Below are positions 4,740-5,564 of a DNA stretch of 50,082 bases, piece by piece. The stretch comes from an uncultured Oscillospiraceae bacterium (GTDB taxonomy: Bacteria; Bacillota; Clostridia; Oscillospirales; Oscillospiraceae): NCBI GenBank assembly GCA_947632005.1, contig CANRNU010000016.1, positions 1-50,082 on the forward strand, written 5' to 3'. The translations under genes were made by a program, and so were the position numbers. The notes beneath the pieces were generated by a model. It ran no database searches. It was not told the origin of the DNA and saw nothing but the letters and a program-made list of their open reading frames with translations. The stretch's first letter is position 1; every line of letters starts with the position of its first letter.

Positions 4740-4836
4740 TGCAATGAGTGTCTGGCAAAACAGCACGGCTGTTTTGCTTCAGCCACGAAGCGGCTCGGCA
4801 CAGCGCCTACGGTGTGTCGCCATCAGATGATTCTGA
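4740..4836 (-). repeat. three-hairpin repeat, copy A (inverted)
   Basis: This ~95-bp repeat, in reverse orientation here, reads ATCTGATGGCGA..., then a GAGCCGCTTCGTGGCTGAAG hairpin, then GCAAAACAGC-CGT-GCTGTTTTGC, a 10-bp stem at about 4754-4776. Related copies lie at 5493, 29841 and 31656. This copy overlaps the 3' end of the recombinase gene, whose stop codon it supplies. Confidence 0.8.
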
Positions 4837-5464
4837 CCGCCCGGTGCGGGGAGCTGTCCGGGCAGGGGATGTGATCCGGTGTGCCGGCTTTGAACCGGAA
4901 GGTGGACAGGGGCATACCGCAGGCCTGGGCAGCCGCGATGCCGGTGATCCGCCCTGCCTGCCAGAGGGCGCGCATCTCCCAGAAATTCTCCGGCAGAGGC
5001 TTGGGAGGCCGGCCGAACCGGACGCCCCGGGCCTTGGCAGCCGCGATGCCCTCCGCCTGCCGCTGGCGGATGTTGGTCCGCTCGTTCTCCGCCACGAAGG
5101 AAAGCACCTGCAGCACGATGTCCGCGAGGAACGTCCCCATCAGGTCCTTGCCCCGGCGGGTGTCCAGCAGGGGCATGTCCAGCACCACGATGTCCACGCC
5201 CCTGTCCTTGGTGAGGATGCGCCATTGCTCCAGTATCTCCAGATAGTCACGCCCCAGACGGTCGATGCTCTTGACGTAGAGCAGATCGTCTTTTTTCATG
5301 CGCCGCACCAGACGCTTATACTGGGGCCGCTCGAAGTCCTTGCCGGACTGCTTGTCCATATAGATGTTCTTCTCCGGGATGTTCAGCTCGTGCAGGGCGA
5401 TGCGCTGCCGGTCCTCGTTCTGCTCCCGGGTGCTGACGCGGATGTAGCCGTAGATGTTTTGCAT
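4823..5464 (-). CDS. serine recombinase (resolvase/invertase family)
   Basis: This 213-residue recombinase has the N-terminal resolvase fold 'YGYIRVST' with nucleophile Ser11, the 'SIDRLGRDY' motif at about 66-74, the long dimer helix '[16 protein letters not shown]', a 'GRPPKPLP' hinge and a C-terminal helix-turn-helix. Such enzymes cut and exchange DNA at short dyad sites to resolve or invert segments. MQNIYGY at 5464 is chosen as start because AAAGGCGG precedes it. The last ~22 residues after the HTH (from FKAGTPDH) look unrelated to the family and end in repeat copy A, so the original C-terminus may be replaced. The gene is bounded by inverted copies A and B of a structured repeat. No TnpB or other transposase gene is adjacent. 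Confidence 0.88.
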
Positions 5465-5492
5465 GGTGTGCCGCCTTTCGTTTTTGTGCCCC

Positions 5493-5564
5493 ATTATAGT
5501 GATCATCCGATGGCGAAACGCCGCAAGGCGCTGCGCCGTGCCGCTTTGCGATGATCATTATAAG
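5493..5564 (+). repeat. three-hairpin repeat, copy B (shortened)
   Basis: This copy has TATAATG-type terminal inverted repeats (TTATAGTGATCATC at the left, GATGATCATTATAA at the right) around GGCGAAACGCCGCAAGGCG. The GCAAAACAGC hairpin of the other copies is missing, so this is an internally deleted member. It lies directly upstream of the recombinase gene, inverted relative to copy A. Confidence 0.8.

Follow-up and report, generated by a model that had tools for sequence, protein, structure and literature searches.

The window, by which we mean the whole 50,082-nucleotide stretch of DNA analysed here, comes from an uncultured Oscillospiraceae bacterium (genome G000; 2.32 Mb, 90 contigs, 77.6% complete). 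It carries a small serine recombinase gene lying between two copies of a hairpin-rich repeat, with two further copies some distance away:

4428..4679, plus strand: Cys-rich small domain gene (PF04071), from a domain search and a relative in G010
4647..4837, minus strand: copy A, a full-length MITE-like element of 191 bp with a decayed inner end (GTCAGAATCATC), from full-length alignment
4823..5464, minus strand: small serine recombinase of 213 aa, from open reading frames, PF00239 and a search of solved chains; relatives at 37-85% identity
5496..5561, plus strand: copy B, a 66-bp deletion derivative that keeps both ends, from the end pattern and copy comparison
5661..7139, minus strand: gene adjoining copy B that we take to be malQ-like, the anchor for locus comparison, from a genus search
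29841..29927, plus strand: copy C, an 87-bp deletion derivative between two ORFs, from repeat comparison
31658..31758, plus strand: copy D, roughly 100 bp, its ends diverged and its borders set by eye; the ORF downstream is presumably alpha-galactosidase-like

The recombinase gene begins at an ATG (5464-5462), and its reading frame can be extended upstream to 5506. Its product contains the Pfam Resolvase domain (PF00239, E 2.4e-29), and its best matches among solved structures are chains of Sin, gamma-delta resolvase and DNA invertases. The presumed catalytic residues and C-terminal helix were placed by eye. The C-terminal tail of the window protein is altered relative to the family, and the enzyme might be inactive. 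The stop codon of the gene falls within copy A, and the convergent Cys-rich gene likewise takes its final codons from this copy; the G010 relative of the Cys-rich protein matches residues 1-75 of 83 and then diverges.

The original prediction of a serine recombinase gene in this part of the window is thus confirmed (4823-5464), as are the inverted orientation of copies A and B around it and the two further copies, C and D, which lie 24-26 kb away with no gene inside. The repeat had been described as about 90 bp long; the corrected lengths are 191 bp for A, 66 bp for B, 87 bp for C and about 100 bp for D. The 825-bp interval 4740-5564 that had been proposed as the unit is not a natural one, as it cuts through copy A. 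We infer that A and B are two independent insertions, one of full length and one shortened.

A mobile family of hairpin-rich repeats

Where four copies had originally been counted, a search of G000 with copy C returned 25 BLAST matches, itself included (E 5.9e-46 to 1.6e-5), and a 21-base end pattern allowing up to 3 mismatches matched 40 times as against 0 for the same pattern reversed, which together indicate about 25 copies or fragments. The family extends beyond this genome, with matches in 22 of 119 genomes, 21 of them from the same genus and one from a different genus within the family. Named genomes yielded 22 stretches with the end pattern, of which 20 are labelled Oscillospiraceae, Ruminococcaceae or Clostridiales; 14 of the 22 come from samples named Lapin. 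The remaining two are contigs labelled as Bacteroidetes kin (L101, Rikenella; L115, Bacteroidia), which may reflect transfer or mis-binning. Viral contigs gave 0 matches to the end pattern.

Our collection comprises 61 unique copies, and for 42 of these both flanks and the full length are available. The full-length repeat is hairpin-rich and about 190 bp long (183-205 bp among the 42), with ends ATAATGATNATC...GATNATCATTAT, that is, ATAATGATNATC and its complement; complete copies are mostly 66-205 bp. At either end, 41-42 of the 42 full-length copies retain the outermost AT. The base two before the element's AT is C or T in 39 of 42 copies and the base two after is A or G in 38 of 42, and these flank preferences point to a target of approximately YNATNR. 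The consensus structure consists of six hairpins within a closing stem formed by the terminal inverted repeats. Its base pairs are formed in 34-42 of the 42 copies; most of them show little variation, and the fold's covariation term adds no independent support. At the gathering threshold, Rfam yields no match for the repeat in the window, and none of the open-access papers listed in literature searches has a title or abstract opening that describes this family.

Six insertion sites could be compared with an ortholog that lacks the element, and in four of these a single AT stands where the element would be:

G000:C15 against G008 (L007/L176): clean empty site, one AT
G010:C21 against G017 (L070/L232): clean empty site, one AT
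G012:C7 against G017 (L084/L235): clean empty site, one AT
G032:C31 against G017 (L094/L242): clean empty site, one AT
L008/L205: two bases, TG
L092/L232: not clean

Where the empty ortholog has a single AT, the element is flanked by AT on both sides. The target-site duplication that was to be looked for would be the 2-bp AT at both junctions, although insertion at A^T without duplication would leave the same letters. A TA duplication was considered and rejected, since the L094/L242 empty site reads ggc-AT-tat and has no TA at the junction. At the G000:C15 site, 25 of 29 relatives' loci show one TATAAT box where G000 carries a 190-bp element; the other 4 are unaligned at the junction, and the projected gap in other relatives ranges from -2 to 362 owing to diverged flanks. 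At one insertion site, the two relatives used for comparison (G033, G034) carry the element as well. The C15 copy has three counterparts in G000 with 96-98% identity to it, a sign of recent insertion, and copy A is 86% identical to it over 4647-4831. For copies C and D no empty site could be read, because their neighbour genes are absent beside malK in the 11 closest of 20 malK loci.

The repeats are thus a mobile, non-autonomous, MITE-like family, and the empty sites bear out the original suggestion that they are small mobile elements. They are short and non-coding, occur in many copies and, in the 42 full-length copies compared, carry terminal inverted repeats, and four of the six empty sites agree with insertion with a target duplication. 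The enzyme that moves them would act in trans. The clean empty sites, combined with the unusual AT junction, mean that the missing transposase of the repeat can be hunted.

At the C15 site (L007; G000:C15:27047) the repeat lies inside the -10 box of a conserved promoter and has TATAAT on either side, and a copy in such a place may rewire genes. Elsewhere, two copies in the same orientation lie about 1.5 kb apart (G002:C2:82694-84538).

Inverted sites near the recombinase family

Members of the recombinase family (E 1e-20) are present in 60 of 119 genomes, and relatives at the same threshold are also found in phage records (8) and plasmid records (1995). The clear members in G000 are the window recombinase and one at C80; a third protein matches weakly (37%, E 7e-4). 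We compared 31 family loci (that of the window, C80 and 29 from relatives) together with as much as 1.5 kb of flanking sequence, several of them being cut short by contig ends. At 16 of the 30 loci other than the window's, an inverted pair of dyad sites of approximate form GCAAAAAAGT-GT-ACTTTTTTGC surrounds promoter-like sequence. Fourteen of these have a pair spaced 96-156 bp and two more (L050, L054) were added by an inverted-repeat scan, while a pair at L049, seen by eye alone, is not counted. Each dyad measures about 22 bp and is centred on GT or AT. In L061 the pair lies 5' of the gene; in the 15 others it lies just 3'. Of the 14 scanned pairs, five are spaced 115-116 bp and six 137-138 bp.

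The promoter-like sequence matches 9-10 of 12 bases in all 13 tested pairs beside genes, a figure that carries no chance control, and the better promoter strand faces the recombinase in 10 of the 13, is tied in 2 and faces away in 1. By eye, the next gene in L045, L046, L047 and L052 opens with a signal-peptide-like stretch, and the contigs of L044, L059 and L061 stop at or right after a site. Neither scan found a pair at the other 14 of the 30 loci; L044, L059, L060 and C80 reach contig ends, and L042 and L043 have no pair though they are of the same helix type and uncut. Ten of the 16 pair-bearing loci encode a recognition-helix stretch like that of the window protein (12 residues, compared by eye). 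The corresponding stretch of C80 groups with L063, L064, L067 and L068. All five lack a pair, though C80 is truncated at its 3' end.

The inverted pairs beside its relatives make the recombinase family look like phase-variation invertases. Invertases are often found near the invertons that they flip, according to PMC11892184. An inverted pair enclosing promoter-like sequence is the anatomy of a promoter inverton, and from this anatomy we infer that the relatives' recombinases would flip the promoter-like sequence between dyad sites with central GT or AT. The window recombinase, too, is probably a phase-variation invertase. Furthermore, such well-defined dyad sites allow promoter switches to be predicted in uncultured Oscillospiraceae.

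At 11 of the 31 loci (L040, L042-L046, L048-L050, L054, L058), no in-frame ATG, GTG or TTG occurs within 8 codons before the aligned start. At the same 11, a stretch resembling a ribosome-binding site is followed by ATA or ATC, 2-3 codons ahead of the aligned start; this may be a rare start codon serving to limit the amount of recombinase.

The window gene has no inverted site pair locally, and copy A occupies the place where it would be expected from the relatives. Searching the window for the family site pattern GTGTACTTTTNNGCAA with up to 3 mismatches gave 0 matches; under looser settings 3 weak places appear, none of them paired. A search for sites across the genome pointed to one place, C2:58091, which has a partner 103 bp away:

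G000:C2:57989-58113: orphan inverted site pair directly before an MBOAT acyltransferase gene (L151, L243)

The two sites score 15 and 17. In the control, 0 sites scored 15 or more in 800 kb of G017 and G032 and 0 did so in 2.4 Mb of simulated sequence. Behind the pair lies the MBOAT gene (PF03062), followed by a gene with no Pfam match. The promoter-like matches within it are 8 of 12 on both strands, so that no direction can be named.

As there is no local pair at the window gene, and as C80 is of the pairless type, we propose the window recombinase as the enzyme for the C2 pair. That it works there in trans is a tentative suggestion, judged from the sites and the two proteins and a little short of an even bet. 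G000 is 77.6% complete and may have further recombinases or site pairs outside the assembled sequence. Action at a distance has a precedent in Mpi of Bacteroides fragilis, which flips many promoters in trans. If the proposal holds, the recombinase would invert the C2 pair and thereby switch the MBOAT O-acyltransferase gene. The orphan pair offers a direct test of trans control over a likely surface acylation gene.

Relation of the recombinase to the repeats

We think it probable, with good confidence, that two separate things adjoin at this locus, namely MITE-like repeats and a phase-variation invertase; action of the latter in trans on C2 is the more tentative part of this reading. The original prediction had joined them, with A, the gene and B forming an autonomous unit and the other copies its non-autonomous relatives. 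The repeat is present in the flank of one of the 31 recombinase loci, the window's own, and the next-best repeat alignment at any of these loci covers 12 bases (E 0.86, L057). Given this count, and given that the relatives have another likely substrate, the unit is not supported.

The alternative that survives best is that the gene is cargo in a composite of two mini-elements, moved by the transposase of the repeats. Composites bounded by Tn3-derived mini-elements (PMC13367494) provide a comparison. Copies A and B would suit this arrangement, being inverted with their ends outward and 915 bp overall, and the locus is variable among relatives. Thus malQ is present in 32 of 35 genus genomes, the recombinase is beside it at 0 of 29 relatives' loci, and in G032 the upstream gene is followed directly by malQ, the Cys-rich gene, A, the recombinase and B all being absent. 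However, the Cys-rich gene lies outside A, so its absence from G032 does not correspond to a precise A-to-B insertion. This gene occurs in 2 of the 35 genomes, and other sequence follows it in G010. Among the relatives compared at the malQ locus there is no precise empty site for A, for B or for the whole unit, and the 1.63 Mb of collected sequence holds no second composite. We regard the cargo explanation as unlikely.

In the autonomous-unit explanation, both the recombinase gene and the small repeats would be mobilised by the serine recombinase, through crossover at the AT dinucleotide. A serine recombinase with an AT core leaves one AT at the empty site and AT at each junction, which is what four of the six insertion sites display. 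The gene is enclosed by the outer ends of A and B, which are inverted relative to each other and 915 bp apart, and the joined ends, GATNATCATT-AT-AATGATNATC, would make a dyad around AT like the sites of the enzyme family. The two also co-occur to some extent, since within the genus a close recombinase relative (at least 70% identity) is present in 10 of 21 repeat-bearing genomes versus 3 of 14 repeat-free ones, or 4 of 14 counting a partial match in G027 (by eye; the genomes are incomplete). Against this, the repeat is found at 0 of the 30 other recombinase loci, the relatives' sites are unlike the repeat ends, the sequence collected for copy comparison contains no joined ends, and the inner end of copy A is decayed. 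Across all genomes (by eye), 19 of the 22 with the repeat contain a family member too (E 1e-20 or better), three (G017, G024 and G038) have the repeat without it, and 41 have the recombinase without the repeat; of the three, G017 is repeat-rich. On this evidence a self-moving unit is very unlikely.

A variant holds that the repeats are a serine-recombinase MITE, moved by AT crossover on the joined-end dyad, with A, the gene and B as the sole autonomous copy left. In the 1.63 Mb of collected sequence (overlaps included), 37 of 40 end pairs are spaced 50-250 bp. The three longer ones are the A-gene-B pair (915 bp), a copy B end paired with a chance end, and two chance ends, so that A-gene-B is the only long pair with two true family ends, as would be expected of a unit, and no other autonomous partner with the same ends was found there. 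Among the 35 genus genomes, which are incomplete, no long convergent end pair was seen (1 mismatch, by eye). We hold this variant to be highly improbable. Finally, A and B could themselves be recombination sites between which the enzyme inverts its own gene, as their inverted orientation around it might suggest, but B lacks the most dyad-like hairpin of A (GCAAAACAGC...GCTGTTTTGC), the arrangement is absent at every other recombinase locus examined and the family site pattern is absent from the window, and we reject this idea almost entirely.

A link between recombinase and repeat is therefore not supported, nor is mobility driven by the window recombinase. The reading of two adjoining but separate things, repeats and invertase, is the one that we compare with known systems below.

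Comparison with known systems

The bacterial MITE families Correia/NEMIS, RUP and ERIC resemble the repeat in short length, absence of protein, terminal inverted repeats, hairpins, copy number and short target duplication, a likeness of description, the sequence check having been made with Rfam only. TA-type MITEs (IS630/Tc1-like, Correia, RUP) duplicate TA, whereas the window repeat has AT. More generally, TA is given as the terminus of most bacterial MITEs in PMC5896051.

Among recombinases, the window protein resembles Hin, Gin and Mpi in its PF00239 domain, its length of about 200 aa and the inverted dyad sites with a central dinucleotide near its relatives' genes. Hin, Gin and Mpi of B. 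fragilis are serine DNA invertases of phase variation. The window recombinase differs from them in having no local pair, and its proposed target lies elsewhere in the genome. It scores 54.2 bits against the Mpi NCBIfam equivalog, below the cut-off of 272 bits, and 24.7 bits against that of IS607, below the cut-off of 110 bits. IS607-type transposases share the serine recombinase chemistry, which leaves one core dinucleotide at each junction. Unlike these, the window gene is flanked by the Cys-rich gene and the malQ-like gene with no tnpB seen, and the repeat is unlinked to the recombinase in relatives. The parts are of known kinds; what stands out is the AT at the junctions of the repeat, along with the putative orphan inverton.

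Two other features of the window are recorded here. The malK-I RNA motif (RF03069; 31161-31339), which is the sole Rfam match in the window, precedes an ABC-transporter ATPase ORF. A different repeat, of 95 nt, occurs twice in direct orientation at 92-293, the neighbouring copies being 84% alike.
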